Shown one piece after another: positions 8,367 to 49,761 of a stretch of DNA of 64,000 bases. Each line of letters begins with the position of its first letter. Positions within the stretch are counted from its first letter, which is position 1. The translations under genes were made by a program, and so were the position numbers. Source of the DNA: Terriglobia bacterium. GTDB taxonomy: Bacteria > Acidobacteriota > Terriglobia > Bryobacterales > Bryobacteraceae. A model generated the notes under the pieces. That model was not told where the DNA came from, did no database searches, and saw nothing but the letters and a program-made list of their open reading frames with translations. Location: contig JAIQFN010000008.1 of assembly GCA_020073265.1 (NCBI GenBank), forward strand, positions 1 to 64,000, read 5' to 3'.

Positions 8367-8412
8367 GTGGCGCACGCACTCGGGCGTGCCGCGTTCACGC
8401 TGGTGTGAACGC
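8367..8412 (+). repeat. 46-bp double stem-loop repeat, copy 1
   Basis: The unit has two stem-loops: a GCACGC hairpin, then GCGTTCACG/TGTGAACGC. It lies between the divergent bshC and cyaY genes, 46 bp before the cyaY ATG. Other copies are at 10940, 20159 and 49716, all in the same orientation. Confidence 0.8.
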
Positions 8413-10939: not shown

Positions 10940-10985
10940 GTGGCGCACGCACTCGCGCGTGCCGCGTTCACACTCCTGTGAACGC
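10940..10985 (+). repeat. 46-bp double stem-loop repeat, copy 2
   Basis: The second hairpin is GCGTTCACA/TGTGAACGC with a CTCC loop. The unit ends 15 bp before the ATG of the broken permease gene and would lie in its 5' leader, just upstream of the AGGAAGGA ribosome-binding site. Confidence 0.85.
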
Positions 10986-13859: not shown

Positions 13860-13899
13860 GTGGGGCAGCCGATCCTGGCTGCAGCCGGCTTCAGCCGGC
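13860..13899 (+). repeat. ~40-bp GTGGGGCAG repeat, copy 1
   Basis: The unit reads GTGGGGCAGCCGATCCTGGC, then GCAGCCGGCTTCAGCCGGC. Two internal palindromes are visible: CAGCC..GGCTG and GCCGGCTTCAGCCGGC. The family occurs at least seven times in the window, almost always directly beside a gene end. Confidence 0.8.
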
Positions 13900-15268: not shown

Positions 15269-16222
15269 ATGGACCGCGTTCTCTCCCAAGAAGAAATCGA
15301 CGACGTATTTCGGAATCTTCGCGACGATGCCGACGATGATCCGGCCAAGCACGCCCTACCCTACGACTTCCGCCGCCCGGACCGCATCGCCAAGGACCAA
15401 CTGCGCGCCATCCACCTGTTGCACGAAAACTTCGCCCGCAGCCTGGCGTCCAGCCTCTCGGCTTATCTGCGAGCTTATGTCGCCGTCAACCTGGTTTCGG
15501 TCGAACAGCTCTCCTTCATGGAATTCTCACAGTGCCTGCCTTCGCCCACCTGCCTGGCCTCGCTCGAGATGAAGCCCTTCGAAAGCAACGCCGTGCTGGA
15601 GATCAACCCCGGCCTGGTTTTTCCGATCATCGAAATGCTGCTGGGGGGCAACGCGCGCACTCCTCTGAAAATCAGCCGTGAGATCACTGAGATCGAGCAA
15701 AGCGTCATGGATGGAATCTTCCGGATTACGCTCCAAGACCTGAAAACCTCCTGGCACGCGGTCACGCCGCTCGAGTTCGCCATCGCGTCGCACGAAACCG
15801 AGCCGCAATTGCTTCACATTCTGTCTCCCAACGAAGCCGTGGTGGCGGTCAGCATCGAAGTCCGCATCGGCGAAAACAGCGGGATGATGAACATCGGCAT
15901 CCCCTCCATCGTCATCAAGATGCTACGCAATAAGTTCGACCAGCAATGGTCGCTGCGCAAGAGCAAATCCACCGAGCAGGACCAGGATCGCGTCCTCCGC
16001 CTGATCCGGCCGGCGCACGTGCACGTGGACGGCCGCCTGGCGGGCCCGACCGTCCGGGTCGCCGATGTGATGGATCTCCAGGAGGACGACGTCCTCACGT
16101 TCGATTACCCCGTCGGCCGGTTCGTCGATCTGAGCATCAACGGGAAGCTGAAATACCGCGGACACATCGTCACTACCGGCGGCAAGCGCGCCTTCCAGAT
16201 CGAAGAACCCTACAAAGTCTAG
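15269..16222 (+). CDS. fliM: flagellar motor switch protein FliM
   Basis: FliM forms the C-ring of the flagellar motor and binds CheY-P. The 317-residue protein starts with the CheY-binding motif LSQEEIDDVF. The middle CheC-like domain contains LEINPGLVFPIIEMLLGGNA and NIGIPSIVIKML. The C-terminal SpoA/FliN domain includes VADVMDLQEDDVLTFDYPV and GHIVTTGGKRAFQI. It looks intact. No other flagellar gene is adjacent: mtaB is divergent and a DinB protein follows, so it sits apart from any flagellar operon in this window. Confidence 0.93.
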   Translation: MDRVLSQEEIDDVFRNLRDDADDDPAKHALPYDFRRPDRIAKDQLRAIHLLHENFARSLASSLSAYLRAYVAVNLVSVEQLSFMEFSQCLPSPTCLASLEMKPFESNAVLEINPGLVFPIIEMLLGGNARTPLKISREITEIEQSVMDGIFRITLQDLKTSWHAVTPLEFAIASHETEPQLLHILSPNEAVVAVSIEVRIGENSGMMNIGIPSIVIKMLRNKFDQQWSLRKSKSTEQDQDRVLRLIRPAHVHVDGRLAGPTVRVADVMDLQEDDVLTFDYPVGRFVDLSINGKLKYRGHIVTTGGKRAFQIEEPYKV

Positions 16223-16261
16223 TGGGGCAGCCAATCCTGGCTGCCGCCGGCTTCAGCCGGC
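16222..16261 (+). repeat. ~40-bp GTGGGGCAG repeat, copy 2
   Basis: It starts on the last base of the fliM stop codon and reads GTGGGGCAGCCAATCCTGGC then CCGGCTTCAGCCGGC. Its hairpins may double as a fliM terminator. Confidence 0.8.
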
Positions 16262-17068: not shown

Positions 17069-17502
17069 GCACCCCTTTCGCCCGAACCCTGCGTGCGCTG
17101 GATGCCGACGACTTCCGCGTCTCCAACGCCGTTGTGCTCCTGGTCCTGGCGCTGCTCGCCGCCTGGACCTGGTGGCTGTTCGCCGGGCGCGTTCCGCAGT
17201 ATGAGTCCACCAGCACCGTGCGCGTCGAGCCGAACCGCTTCGTCGCCACCTTCCCGCCGCGCGTGCTCGACCAAGTGCGCCCCGGCCAGCCCGCCACCCT
17301 CACACTCGACGGAGCCGCGCTGCCCGCCCGCGTCGCGGCCATCGGACTGGACGCCTCCAGCGGCCAGGTTCAAATCATCCTGCTCGCCGCCACCGAATCC
17401 TCCGTCCAGGCCGCCGCCAAATCCGCCCAGGCTTCGGTCGAAATTGAACGTGTCTCGCCCGCCACGCTGGTGCTGCGCGCCATCGGTCGCGCCCGGCGAT
17501 GA
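17065..17502 (+). CDS. minimal HlyD-like membrane-fusion protein
   Basis: This 145-residue protein has a cytoplasmic N-terminus, one TM helix at about 22-40 (VVLLVLALLAAWTWWLFAG), then a beta-rich domain (ESTSTVRVEPNRFVATFPPRVLDQVRPGQPATLTLDG). The latter resembles the beta-barrel part of HlyD-type adaptor proteins. The lipoyl domain and coiled-coil hairpin of full-length members (over 300 residues) are absent. It overlaps the next gene by 4 bp (ATGA), so it very likely works with the C39 ABC exporter. It may be a reduced or decayed adaptor. Confidence 0.6.
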   Translation: MSTPFARTLRALDADDFRVSNAVVLLVLALLAAWTWWLFAGRVPQYESTSTVRVEPNRFVATFPPRVLDQVRPGQPATLTLDGAALPARVAAIGLDASSGQVQIILLAATESSVQAAAKSAQASVEIERVSPATLVLRAIGRARR

Positions 17503-20108
17503 AGACCAGCGCCCGCCTCATCGTCCCCGAGGTCGTGCAGACCTCCAACATGGACTGCGGACCCGCCGCGCTCAAGTGCCTGCTGGAGGGCTTCGGAATC
17601 CACGTCCACTACGGCCGCCTGCGCGAAGCCTGCCAGACCGACGTCGACGGAACCTCCATCGACACCATGGAAACCGTCGCCAACCAGCTCGGACTCCAAG
17701 CCGAACAGATCATGCTGCCGGCTGATCACGTGCTGATCGACGAGGCGCGCGCGCTTCCCGCCATCGCCGTCGTGGTGCTGCCCAACGGCATCGTGCACTT
17801 CGTCGTGGTGTGGCGCCGGCACGGCTCGTTCGTGCAGATCATGGACCCCGCCACCGGCCGCCGCTGGACTCGCAGCGCGCGTTTCCTCTCGGAGCTGCTG
17901 GTGCACACGATGGCCGTGCCCGCCTCCGATTGGCGCAAGTACGCCGCCTCGGACGATTTCCTGCGCCCGCTGCGCCGCCGCATGGATTTGCTCGGCATCA
18001 CCGGGCACACTCGCGACCTGCGCGCCTCCGCGGCCGCGAATCCGGACTGGCGGCCCATCGCCGCTCTCGACGCCGGCGTCCGCACGCTCGACTCGCTGGT
18101 CAACTCGGGCGCCATCCAAGCCGGCGCCCAGGCCGCCCGAGTGCTCGACAGCTTTCTCGAAAAACCGGAGTCCATACCGGAGCACTACTGGTCCGTGCGT
18201 CCCGGCCCCGCTGAGGACCAGCTTCTGTTGCGCGGAGCCGTGCTGGTTCGCGCGCTGGGAACATCGAAAGCCGGTCAGACTGCTCCCACCTCGCCTGAGC
18301 TGATCGCCGCGCTCCAACAACCTCCGCTCCGGCCCGGCCGCGAGCTGCTGCGCTTGCTGTTCGCCGACGGCGCGTTCACGCCCGCCGCGATCCTGACCGC
18401 TCTCGCCGTCGCCAGCGGAGCCGTCATCCTGGAAGTAATCCTGTTTCGATCTCTGCTGGACCTCGGCCGTTCGCTCTCGCTCGCCAGCCAACGCCTCGGC
18501 GCCATCGCTGCGGTGGTGGTCTTCTCGCTGGTGCTGCTGCTGCTCGAAGTCCCCGTTACCAGCAGCCTGCTGCGCCTCGGACGCCGGCTCGAGCTTCGCC
18601 TGCGCCTCGCCTTCCTGCGAAAACTCCCGCGCCTCGGCGACCGCTATTTCCAAAGCCGCCTCAAGTCCGACATGGCCGAGCGCAGCCACAGCATCCATCT
18701 CATTCGCCGCCTCCCGGAACTCGCCGGCCAGCTACTGCGTTACAGCTTCGAACTCGTTTTCACCACCGCCGGCATCATCTGGCTCGACCCGGCCGCCGCC
18801 TCCCTCGCGATTCTGGCCGCGTTGACCGCCGTCGCCATCCCGCTCCTCTCCGAGCCCTGGCTCATGGAACGCGACCTGCGCTTCCGCACGCACTCCGGCG
18901 CGCTCACGCATTTTTATCTGGACGCGCTGCTCGGCTTGGTCGCGATCCACACCCACGGCGCGCAACCGGCCCTGCGTCGCGAGCACGAGAGCCTGCTCAC
19001 CGAATGGGCCCGAGCCGGGCTCAACCTGCAGCGCGCCGTGATCTCGCTTGAAACCGTGCAATTCCTGGCGGGCTTTGGCCTCGCCATCTGGCTGCTCGCT
19101 TCTCATCTCGGCCGCAGCGGCGAATCCGGCGCCATCCTGCTGCTGGTCTATTGGGCATTGAACCTGCCCGCGCTGGGCCAGGAAATCGCGCTCATCGCAT
19201 GGCAGTATCCTTCCTATCGCAACGTCACGCTGCGCTTGCTCGAACCGCTGGGCGCAATCGAGCAGACGCCGGCGCGTCCGGATGTCGCTTTCCAGCCTCA
19301 CGCCTCCGCCGCTTCTGTCGCGTTTGAAAACGTCAGCGTGACCGTCGCCGGCCACACCGTGCTCGAAGATATCGCGCTCTCCGTTAAGGCGGGCGATCAC
19401 ATCGCGATCGTGGGCCCTTCGGGCGCCGGAAAATCCAGCCTGGTCGGTCTGCTGCTGGGTTGGCATCGCCCCGCGGCCGGACGCGTGCTGGTGGACGGCG
19501 TCGAACTGGACACCGAAGCGGTGGAGCGACTGCGCCCTCACATCGCCTGGGTCGACCCGGCGGTTCAGCTTTGGAATCGTCCGCTCAAAGAAAATCTCGA
19601 GTACGGTCTCCCAGCCGAGCCGAGAATGCCGCTCGATCAGGCCATCGACGCCGCCGAGCTACGCCGCGTTCTGGATCGGCTTCCGGAAGGACCCGCCACA
19701 CCGCTCGGCGAAGGCGGCGGCCTGGTCTCGGGCGGCGAAGGCCAGCGCGTGCGATTCGGACGCGCGCTGCTGCGGCCCGGCGTCCGCCTGGTGATCCTCG
19801 ACGAGCCGTTCCGCGGCCTCGACTTGAACCAGCGCCGCGCGTTGCTCGAACGCGCCCGCCAACTCTGGCGCGACGCCACGCTGCTTTCCATTTCCCACGA
19901 CATCGCCGACACGCTGGCCTTCGAGCGCGTCATCGTCTTAGAAGCCGGCCGCATCGCCGAACAAGGCCATCCGCGCGAGCTGGCCGAGAACCGCGGTTCC
20001 CGGCTTTACGCGATGCTCCAAGCCGAACAGCAAGTCCGCGAAGGCTTGTGGTCGAGCGGCGACTGGCGCCGCGTACTCCTTCAAGACGGAGTTCTGATCG
20101 AGCAATGA
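17499..20108 (+). CDS. C39-peptidase-containing ABC exporter
   Basis: This inner-membrane exporter (869 residues) should cleave a leader peptide and transport the core. The N-terminal C39 peptidase carries Q14 and C20 (SNMDCGPAAL), H100 (GIVHFVVV) and D116 (IMDPATG), so the catalytic set is complete. Residues of about 130-290 form a soluble linker. The TM domain spans about 290-560. The ATPase domain has Walker A GPSGAGKS near 638, signature VSGGEGQR near 743, Walker B LVILDEP, and SISHD. It overlaps both neighbours. The layout recalls NHLM-type bacteriocin exporters, but no precursor with a double-Gly leader is visible nearby. Confidence 0.85.
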   Translation: MKTSARLIVPEVVQTSNMDCGPAALKCLLEGFGIHVHYGRLREACQTDVDGTSIDTMETVANQLGLQAEQIMLPADHVLIDEARALPAIAVVVLPNGIVHFVVVWRRHGSFVQIMDPATGRRWTRSARFLSELLVHTMAVPASDWRKYAASDDFLRPLRRRMDLLGITGHTRDLRASAAANPDWRPIAALDAGVRTLDSLVNSGAIQAGAQAARVLDSFLEKPESIPEHYWSVRPGPAEDQLLLRGAVLVRALGTSKAGQTAPTSPELIAALQQPPLRPGRELLRLLFADGAFTPAAILTALAVASGAVILEVILFRSLLDLGRSLSLASQRLGAIAAVVVFSLVLLLLEVPVTSSLLRLGRRLELRLRLAFLRKLPRLGDRYFQSRLKSDMAERSHSIHLIRRLPELAGQLLRYSFELVFTTAGIIWLDPAAASLAILAALTAVAIPLLSEPWLMERDLRFRTHSGALTHFYLDALLGLVAIHTHGAQPALRREHESLLTEWARAGLNLQRAVISLETVQFLAGFGLAIWLLASHLGRSGESGAILLLVYWALNLPALGQEIALIAWQYPSYRNVTLRLLEPLGAIEQTPARPDVAFQPHASAASVAFENVSVTVAGHTVLEDIALSVKAGDHIAIVGPSGAGKSSLVGLLLGWHRPAAGRVLVDGVELDTEAVERLRPHIAWVDPAVQLWNRPLKENLEYGLPAEPRMPLDQAIDAAELRRVLDRLPEGPATPLGEGGGLVSGGEGQRVRFGRALLRPGVRLVILDEPFRGLDLNQRRALLERARQLWRDATLLSISHDIADTLAFERVIVLEAGRIAEQGHPRELAENRGSRLYAMLQAEQQVREGLWSSGDWRRVLLQDGVLIEQ

Positions 20109-22186
20109 ACGAACTCCTCTGGCCCGCACCGCGCCTGCACGAAGCCCTGCACGCCCTGGTGGCGCACGCGCTCGTGCGTGCCGCGTCCCCACTCCTGGGG
20201 ACGCCAGAAGAAGCAACCCACGATGCCGAAGCCCTGAACACATGGTTGTCCGCAGCCGCCCAAACCTTGGGCGTCGAGTCCGAGCCGATCGAAACGACCT
20301 ACTCCGACTTCGAGCGCGACGTCTCTCGTCTGGGCCCCGCCTTGATCCGCATCGGCACAGGTTTCCTCGCTCTCCTTCCCGGCAGTCGACTCCGCGCACT
20401 CGCTCCCGATCTCCGCCCGCACGCAGTATCGACCGCCGAACTCCGCGCCGCCCTCTGCGGCCTCATCGAAGCGCACGTCCTCCCCGAAGTCGACCAGCTC
20501 CTCACGCGCGCCGGCATCGGACCGTCGGATCAACCCCGCGCGCGCGCCGCTCTCCTCCGCGAACGCCTCAGCGCCGCACGCATCCGCGGCATCTGGCTTT
20601 TGCGTCTCCCGCCGTCGACGAATTTCTGGCAGCAGCTTCGCCACGCCCGCGTGCCGCGCCGGCTGTACGCCCTGGCCGGCGCGCACGCGATCCAATATGG
20701 TCTCTGGATCCTGACCTGGTGGGTGGTCGGAACCAACGTGCTCAACCGGACCACCGATCGCTCCTGGCTCTACATCTGGGCGCTGCTGCTGCTCACGCTG
20801 GTTCCATTTCGCGTGCTGGTTACCTGGCTGCAAGGCTCCATCGCGATTGGCGCCGGCGCGCGGCTCAAGCAGCGCCTGTTCTTCGGCGCAATGCGGTTGG
20901 AACCGGATAGCATTCGCCACCAAGGCGCCGGACAATTGCTCGGACGCGTGCTCGAATCCGAAGCGGTCGAGGCGCTGGCGTTGAGCGGCGGATTCCTCGC
21001 CTTCGTGGCTCTCATCGAACTCGTAATTTCGATCTTCGTGCTGGCCGCGGGCGCGGGCGGCGCATTGCAATCGAGCCTGCTGGTTGCCTGGCTGTTCGTA
21101 TCCGCGATCACTGCGTGGCGATACTACCGGCGCAATTGCAATTGGACCGACGTGCGCCTGGCCATGACACACGATCTGGTCGAGAGCATGGTGGGACATC
21201 GCACGCGCCTCGCGCAGCTTCCGCCCGATCGCTGGCACCAGGGCGAAGACGAAGCGCTCGAATCCTATCTCAAGTCGTCGAAAACCATGGACGACTCCAC
21301 CACCGCGCTCCTCGCCGCCGTGCCGCGCGGTTGGCTGGTGCTCGGCCTGCTTGGCATCGCTCCGGCGTTCATCAACGGAACGCAATCCACTGCGAGCATC
21401 GCCATCGCCGTCGGCGGAATGCTGCTGGCCTATCGTGCCCTGAAACGCTGCGCGTCGGGAGCGTGGCAGCTCTCCGGCGCCGCCGTCGCATGGCAGCGCA
21501 CCTCGGTACTGTTTCGCGCCGCGACGCGAACCGAGTTGATCGGATCTTTGAACGCGGCAGCCTCCACCAAGTCCGAAGGCGCACTCGAAGCGCGCGACCT
21601 GGTCTTTCGATACAGCCGGAAAACGCCGCCGGTTTTGCGCGGCTGCAGCCTCCGTATTTCGCGCGGCGACCGATTGGTGCTGGAAGGCGAATCGGGCGGC
21701 GGAAAATCCACGCTGGTTTCCCTGCTGGTGGGCCTCAGAGAACCGGACTCAGGCCAGCTCCGCTTCGACAGCCTGGACCGCAAGACGCTGGGCGCCGAGG
21801 CCTGGCGCAAACGCATCGCCGCCGCGCCGCAGTTCCACGAGAATCACGTGCTGGCCGAAACGTTCGCCTTCAACCTGCTCATGGGAAGGCGAACCACGCC
21901 CTCGCCGCTCGATCTTCCGCAGGCCGAGGAGATCTGCCGCGAACTCGGCCTCGGCGATCTGGTGGAGCGCATGCCGGCCGGCGTGCTGCAGATGGTCGGC
22001 GAGACCGGCTGGCAGTTATCGCACGGCGAGCGCAGCCGCCTGTACATCGCGCGCGCGCTGCTGCAGGACGCCGATCTGGTGGTGCTGGACGAAAGCTTCG
22101 CCGCGCTCGATCCCATCAATCTGCAACGCGCGCTGGAGTGCGTCGCGAAACGCGCGCGCTCGCTGCTGGTGATCTCGCACCGGTGA
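20105..22186 (+). CDS. second ABC exporter subunit, ends at the H-loop
   Basis: This 693-residue half-transporter is coupled to the preceding gene (ATGA). The N-terminal 190 residues are soluble and helical. TM helices lie at about 195-430. The ATPase domain has Walker A GESGGGKS near 527, signature LSHGERSR near 637, Walker B VVLDES, and H-loop VISHR. The last is also the last residue: the usual 20-40 residues after the H-loop are missing. Residues 19-34 are encoded by a 46-bp palindromic repeat (20159-20204). The gene matches the third component of NHLM-like export sets (ABC without peptidase). Confidence 0.8.
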   Translation: MNELLWPAPRLHEALHALVAHALVRAASPLLGTPEEATHDAEALNTWLSAAAQTLGVESEPIETTYSDFERDVSRLGPALIRIGTGFLALLPGSRLRALAPDLRPHAVSTAELRAALCGLIEAHVLPEVDQLLTRAGIGPSDQPRARAALLRERLSAARIRGIWLLRLPPSTNFWQQLRHARVPRRLYALAGAHAIQYGLWILTWWVVGTNVLNRTTDRSWLYIWALLLLTLVPFRVLVTWLQGSIAIGAGARLKQRLFFGAMRLEPDSIRHQGAGQLLGRVLESEAVEALALSGGFLAFVALIELVISIFVLAAGAGGALQSSLLVAWLFVSAITAWRYYRRNCNWTDVRLAMTHDLVESMVGHRTRLAQLPPDRWHQGEDEALESYLKSSKTMDDSTTALLAAVPRGWLVLGLLGIAPAFINGTQSTASIAIAVGGMLLAYRALKRCASGAWQLSGAAVAWQRTSVLFRAATRTELIGSLNAAASTKSEGALEARDLVFRYSRKTPPVLRGCSLRISRGDRLVLEGESGGGKSTLVSLLVGLREPDSGQLRFDSLDRKTLGAEAWRKRIAAAPQFHENHVLAETFAFNLLMGRRTTPSPLDLPQAEEICRELGLGDLVERMPAGVLQMVGETGWQLSHGERSRLYIARALLQDADLVVLDESFAALDPINLQRALECVAKRARSLLVISHR
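20159..20204 (+). repeat. 46-bp double stem-loop repeat, copy 3 (inside a gene)
   Basis: It lies in the reading frame of the second ABC gene from codon 19. Compared with the other copies its second stem has changed from GCGTTCACA/TGTGAACGC to GCGTCCCCA/TGGGGACGC. Both arms changed together, so pairing is preserved, and the in-frame TGA that the other copies would give is removed. Confidence 0.8.
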
Positions 22187-29756: not shown

Positions 29757-29834
29757 TGGTACGCCCGGTAAGATTCGAACTTACGACCTTTTGCTCCGGA
29801 GGCAAACGCTCTATCCAGACTGAGCTACGGGCGC
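29757..29834 (-). tRNA. tRNA-Arg (anticodon CCG)
   Basis: Read on the minus strand: acceptor GCGCCCG/CGGGCGT, D arm AGCTCAGTCTGGATAGAGC, anticodon stem TTTGC/GCAAA with loop CTCCGGA (anticodon CCG), T arm with GTTCGAATC, A73 and an encoded CCA. All stems pair. A perfect -10 (TATAAT on the minus strand, 29849-29844) lies 10 bp upstream of the first base. Confidence 0.95.
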
Positions 29835-49715: not shown

Positions 49716-49761
49716 GTGGCGCACGCACTCGTGCGTGCCGCGTTCACACTCGTGTGAACGC
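49716..49761 (+). repeat. 46-bp double stem-loop repeat, copy 4
   Basis: This is the most regular copy. Hairpin 1 is GCACGCA/TGCGTGC and hairpin 2 is GCGTTCACA/TGTGAACGC, both with a CTCG loop. It lies between the lactonase-like gene and the end of the DUF4281 gene, 5 bp from the latter's stop. Confidence 0.85.

Follow-up and report, generated by a model that had tools for sequence, protein, structure and literature searches.

The ABC exporter locus and its 46-bp element

In the stretch of contig JAIQFN010000008.1 analysed here (64,000 nucleotides from a Terriglobia bacterium; hereafter, the window), two ABC exporter genes overlap on the plus strand of a draft genome (6.41 Mb, 131 contigs). 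The first (17499–20108, +) encodes Peptidase_C39 and ABC_tran domains, and its stop codon (20106–20108) lies inside the start region of the second (ABC2; 20105–22186, +), which forms an ATGA overlap with it. ABC2 encodes a second exporter subunit with an ABC_tran domain and an N-terminal part for which we use the name “C39-like” tentatively: its best Foldseek match in the PDB is a C39-like domain (E 7e-4), at a TM of 0.30 by query length. The closest relatives of this protein in the named collection are MAGs of Bryobacterales or Bryobacteraceae, and against the NHLP export subunit TIGR03797 it scores 116.2 bits, below the curated cut-off of 709.4.

A 46-bp REP-like doublet occupies 20159–20204 (+) and lies in frame over codons 19–34 of ABC2. 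With the ORF starting at 20105, the repeat begins exactly at codon 19, as the sequence-only reading had stated, and that reading was equally right that the consensus repeat would stop in this frame (GTG TGA); the 20159 copy instead reads V-A-H-A-L-V-R-A-A-S-P-L-L-G-T(+P). In the predicted fold, hairpin 1 (20161–20182, +) has an imperfect stem and adjoins the 5′ GTGG, and hairpin 2 (20183–20204, +), whose arms vary among copies, has a perfect 9-bp stem (GCGTCCCCA/TGGGGACGC). Pattern searches place three more copies in the window, two of the TTCAC type (8367–8412 and 10940–10985, both +) and one consensus copy (49716–49761, +), for a total of four. Rfam at gathering threshold has no match within the element, the sole match in the window being a tRNA gene (29760–29834, minus strand).

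A dispersed family and its transposase context

The genome (6.4 Mb) holds 95 matches to the 46-bp repeat at ≤3 mismatches and none to a reversed-pattern control, so the repeat is not a product of chance; the 20159 copy lies more than three mismatches from the search pattern and hence outside the 95. A looser core pattern, present in 14 of the 61 genomes searched, matches 177 times in this genome, 288 and 301 times in the genus-mates G001 and G002, and 15, 20, 118, and 258 times in G003, G004, G024, and G034, respectively. Against the 177 core matches, our copy-level analyses draw on 107 distinct copies, which include all 20 other CCCC-type places but just part of the remaining copies, chosen among the matches listed by the two pattern searches. 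One core copy in G001 (G001:C238:3369-3397) lies about 20 bp past the point where the ABC2 orthologue match ends. Searching plasmids yielded nothing further on the element.

Family members share an anatomy of a 5′ GTGG, two hairpins, arrangement in inverted pairs (spaced by a few tens of bases, at several loci), and a position shortly past stop codons. The 5′ tetranucleotide at the hairpin foot is GTGG in the window copy and most listed copies, GTAG in some, and the flanks are without conservation except for a preferred C before the element and a preferred G at positions 3 and 4 downstream. Among 105 own-genome copies with 60-nt flanks, a stop triplet ends 0–7 nt upstream of the element in 62, whereas the four 8-nt bins that follow hold 27, 16, 18, and 20 (triplets counted in any frame, not every one of them a gene's stop). 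The family norm is thus extragenic and near gene 3′ ends, unlike the intragenic copy at 20159.

We examined 30 loci carrying relatives of one transposase. The element type flanks the transposase gene on both sides in three (L176 in G002, L178 in G034, and L184 in G001, the last with a variant element); L180, L183, and L190, all truncated at contig ends, have it on one side; at L177 (G001) the transposase is 97% identical, yet the element is absent on either side. The L147 protein scores 76.4 bits against NF047646, under the cut-off of 80. As an observation apart, the REP-type transposase frames of L147 (G002) and L146 (G001) read through the flanking element at their C-terminal end. No cognate transposase was found in the own genome, a 131-contig draft, whose best match is 52% identical and flanked by GTGGGGCAGGC repeats, a different GTGG family. 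This second GTGG family (GTGGGGCAG...), which lies on both sides of a REP-type transposase at L041 (G000:C86), has copies in the window as well, at 13860–13899 and 16222–16261. Since orphan REPs are compatible with an absent cognate transposase, the filing rests on other features: because of the GTGG foot, two hairpins, dispersal, 3′-end proximity, and transposase flanking, we file the family as REP-type, i.e., as a putative GTRG-footed repetitive palindrome.

Rickettsia palindromic elements, another class of repeat that resides within genes, were reportedly described earlier than 2013. In the passages of PMC10969869 drawn on here, they are about 150 bp long and lie in frame within genes; the present element resembles them in being palindromic and read in frame in unrelated protein genes (the ABC2 copy and the ImuB and DnaE2 copies described below), and is set apart, by description, in being 46 bp long and linked to REP-type transposases. 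The REP/TnpA-REP systems are closer in structure, with a 5′ GT[AG]G at the hairpin foot and elements that flank a Y1 transposase gene, as the relevant parts of PMC6006769 describe and as we find in the present family. Those parts also describe atypical structures with CnGA feet (class 3) in Solibacter usitatus, from which the present family differs by its GTGG foot and by an own draft genome without a close transposase. Closest in behavior are the REPs of PMC3733652 (2013), which, in the portions used here, can sit entirely inside ORFs (in many cases at N-termini, where the paper cautions against misannotation), include intragenic GTAG-tagged REPs tolerated in linkers or loops, a REP-tagged DnaE2, and, in one species, GTGG feet. 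Both sets are short GTRG-footed palindromes, mostly near gene 3′ ends, with some inside ORFs at N-termini, linkers, or loops and in DnaE2; on the same portions, the present unit differs in being a fixed 46-bp two-hairpin doublet, in its occurrence in Bryobacterales and in an ABC exporter, and in its stop-free stem subfamily. Our searches of open-access literature listed no paper on this element family in Bryobacterales. Intragenic palindromic repeats are a known kind, to which this family and its ABC2 case add a new member.

Reading frame, linker, and stem variants in ABC2 and other genes

We aligned the N-terminus of the window protein with those from 53 of 71 fetched loci, leaving out 18 that were truncated, had no usable start, or gave no adequate match. 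Upstream of the repeat, W6 (entropy 0.14) and L18 (0.40) are nearly invariant across the 54 sequences, and the relatives sharing conserved residues 6–18 span several phyla. Downstream, conservation returns at several residues from position 47 on; residues 25–46 form a highly variable stretch, within which the window protein retains a fairly conserved Pro at position 34. The ABC2 genes of G001, G002, and G003 are without the 46-bp element at this site and keep the ATG, which overlaps the upstream stop as ATGA. The G004 N-terminus contains Ns and its frame is broken, so it speaks neither for nor against. Because W6 and L18 are conserved and the overlap is kept in G001–G003, the comparison supports, at the level of sequence, translation from 20105 and not from past the repeat. 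A downstream start, or the same residues in relatives without the repeat, would have contradicted the sequence-only reading, and neither was found among the N-termini compared.

The same reading also had the protein gain about 15 residues from the repeat, which the linker lengths do not bear out. Between Leu18 and Trp47 the window protein has 30 residues, against a median of 31 for the 54 aligned sequences; the linker is 21 residues long in G001, 23 in G002, and 34 in G003 (i.e., the window differs by +9, +7, and −4). Judged by these alignments, the repeat occupies the linker relative to most relatives instead of lengthening it, and a further indel is required: a clean insertion of 46 bp, a length not divisible by 3, would shift the frame. 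An AlphaFold2 model built on eight sequences (mean pLDDT 85 overall) predicts a helix at 8–22, a loop at 23–40, and a helix at 41–54, so the repeat would cover the helix end and the loop; mean pLDDT is 70 for residues 21–30 and 69 for residues 31–40.

The arms of stem 2 come in many types among the 107 own-genome copies, including 61 TCAC/GTGA and 18 CCCC/GGGG, and they covary, with each of nine pairs Watson–Crick in 66–68 of 69 distinct copies. The CCCC/GGGG stem carried by the 20159 copy occurs at 15 exact places in this genome (14 besides 20159) and also in G034, a member of another genus. Two other copies, at L059 and L063, match the 20159 copy at 45 of 46 bases, and the single base that sets it apart is synonymous in the ABC2 frame (GCA to GCG). 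No stop interrupts the ABC2 frame in 43 of the 107 copies, and four CCCC copies lack a stop in every one of the six frames. The proposal that stem-preserving changes in the 20159 copy had removed a stop therefore fails: CCCC/GGGG is a standing subfamily, and since it is found at other places and L059 and L063 are near-identical, the base changes pre-date the ABC2 site. On this comparison of copies, the variant that entered ABC2 was stop-free beforehand, and no in-place change appears to have removed a stop.

Two other in-frame copies lie in one operon of the own genome, in an ImuB-like gene (L068:793-2031, −) and a DnaE2-like gene (L068 about 755-800, −). In ImuB, hairpin 2 is read in the same frame as in ABC2, giving IAQA[MWRTLQRAASPLMRTP]QVNIAIA, and this segment is nine residues shorter in G001, G002, and G004. 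In DnaE2, the gene next to ImuB, ATGACTGAC is followed by the element, then by 23 nt, then by the conserved YIELH; in G022, ATGACTGAC stands immediately before YIELH, the start is short in G004 as well, and in G002 a different, tandem-looking sequence takes the element's place. This element lies one base past the ImuB stop and, because the two genes overlap (stop/start), is DnaE2 coding. Weaker in-frame candidates are L051, L080, L299, and L310; open-frame listings consist mostly of chance frames in GC-rich DNA, and we retained cases only on inspection by eye or comparison with homologues. The L299 candidate in G001 (L299:181-1089, −) is a 303-aa ORF with an element-encoded N-terminus, MNS[VAHALLRAASILVSTL]GVLTAQQ, that looks signal-peptide-like by eye; neither the L299 nor the L051 candidate matched a Pfam family. 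A codon-usage scan for coding copies recovered neither the window case nor the ImuB case and placed antisense frames high in its ranking, so its 0 of 42 in the genus-mates is uninformative.

In one genus-mate a different dispersed repeat lies in the ABC2 linker: that of G002 (L010; G002:C19:2020-2059) holds a 7-bp tandem array of ACGAGAA, a search pattern with 94 places in G002 and 84 in G001 (overlapping places counted separately) and none in G000, G003, or G004; perfect 7-bp arrays are rare in the fetched own-genome stretches (1 in about 416 kb). The linkers of G001 and G004 are tandem-looking, and both contain Ns. A palindrome in the G003 linker was considered as a dispersed repeat and dropped, its pattern having matched only itself in five genomes.

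Probable repeat translation and its alternatives

The account we favor, and consider very probable, is that a REP doublet of the stop-free subfamily entered the ABC2 linker and is translated and tolerated in an unconstrained loop. It builds on the observed family and subfamily, the frame and its conserved flanks, the loop position in the model, and the in-frame copies in ImuB and DnaE2. Within a Bryobacterales group, a family of 46-bp GTGG-footed doublets tied to REP-associated tyrosine transposases has most of its copies outside genes, often directly past stop codons; a transposase may have mobilized the element in the past. A stop-free CCCC/GGGG copy would have entered the early part of the second gene of the ABC exporter operon, at the variable loop between two predicted helices of the C39-like N-terminal domain. 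The protein would then be made with V-A-H-A-L-V-R-A-A-S-P-L-L-G-T-P, and these residues would be tolerated and neutral, the loop being apparently unconstrained in length or sequence.

It is unlikely, by comparison, that the element acts as an RNA hairpin tuning translation of ABC2 relative to the first gene: 54 nt past the start, the 20159 copy has a predicted fold of −29.6 kcal/mol (z −3.79; 0 of 200 shuffles equally stable), but G001, G002, and G003 do without it at this site, and other family copies are predicted to fold as well, so that folding is no sign of a role at ABC2. We regard as very improbable a true domestication, in which selection gave the repeat's residues a role in the exporter and favored stem-preserving changes that removed the stop. 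The open frame, the fit of the residues to helix end and loop, and the retained Pro 34 agree with it; the stop-free stem at 14 other exact places, the one synonymous base separating the copy from L059 and L063, and the position in a highly variable stretch with loop pLDDT of 69–70 speak against it. No more credible is a real start farther downstream that leaves 20105–20204 as an untranslated leader and the repeat extragenic as usual, since the conservation of residues 6–18 across several phyla and the ATGA overlap kept in G001–G003 outweigh the position of the upstream stop and the frequent misannotation of REPs near annotated N-termini (noted in the cited portions of PMC3733652).

Probable translation of a stop-free REP doublet is thus where the sequence-only reading, which had described a palindromic repeat domesticated into an ABC transporter frame, comes to stand: the repeat does lie within a real reading frame, and domestication is unproven because the differing base is synonymous, the loop that takes up the residues is variable, and nothing points to a need for them in the protein. 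The 20159 case is clear but ordinary repeat translation, not evidence of a repeat reshaped into protein. A broader possibility, which we put forward tentatively and hold to be rather doubtful, is that in this genus the same inter-helix linkers and overlapping gene starts are entered time and again by unrelated dispersed repeats (REP doublets and 7-bp tandem arrays), with stop-free REP stem subfamilies serving as ready-made coding modules, such that repeat DNA would steadily supply new peptides to N-termini and linkers.

What looks like an adaptive removal of a stop can be a pre-existing repeat variant, a pitfall of working from one sequence alone. ABC2, ImuB, and DnaE2 provide paired filled and unfilled sites across relatives, which makes tolerance of repeat-coded peptides directly testable.
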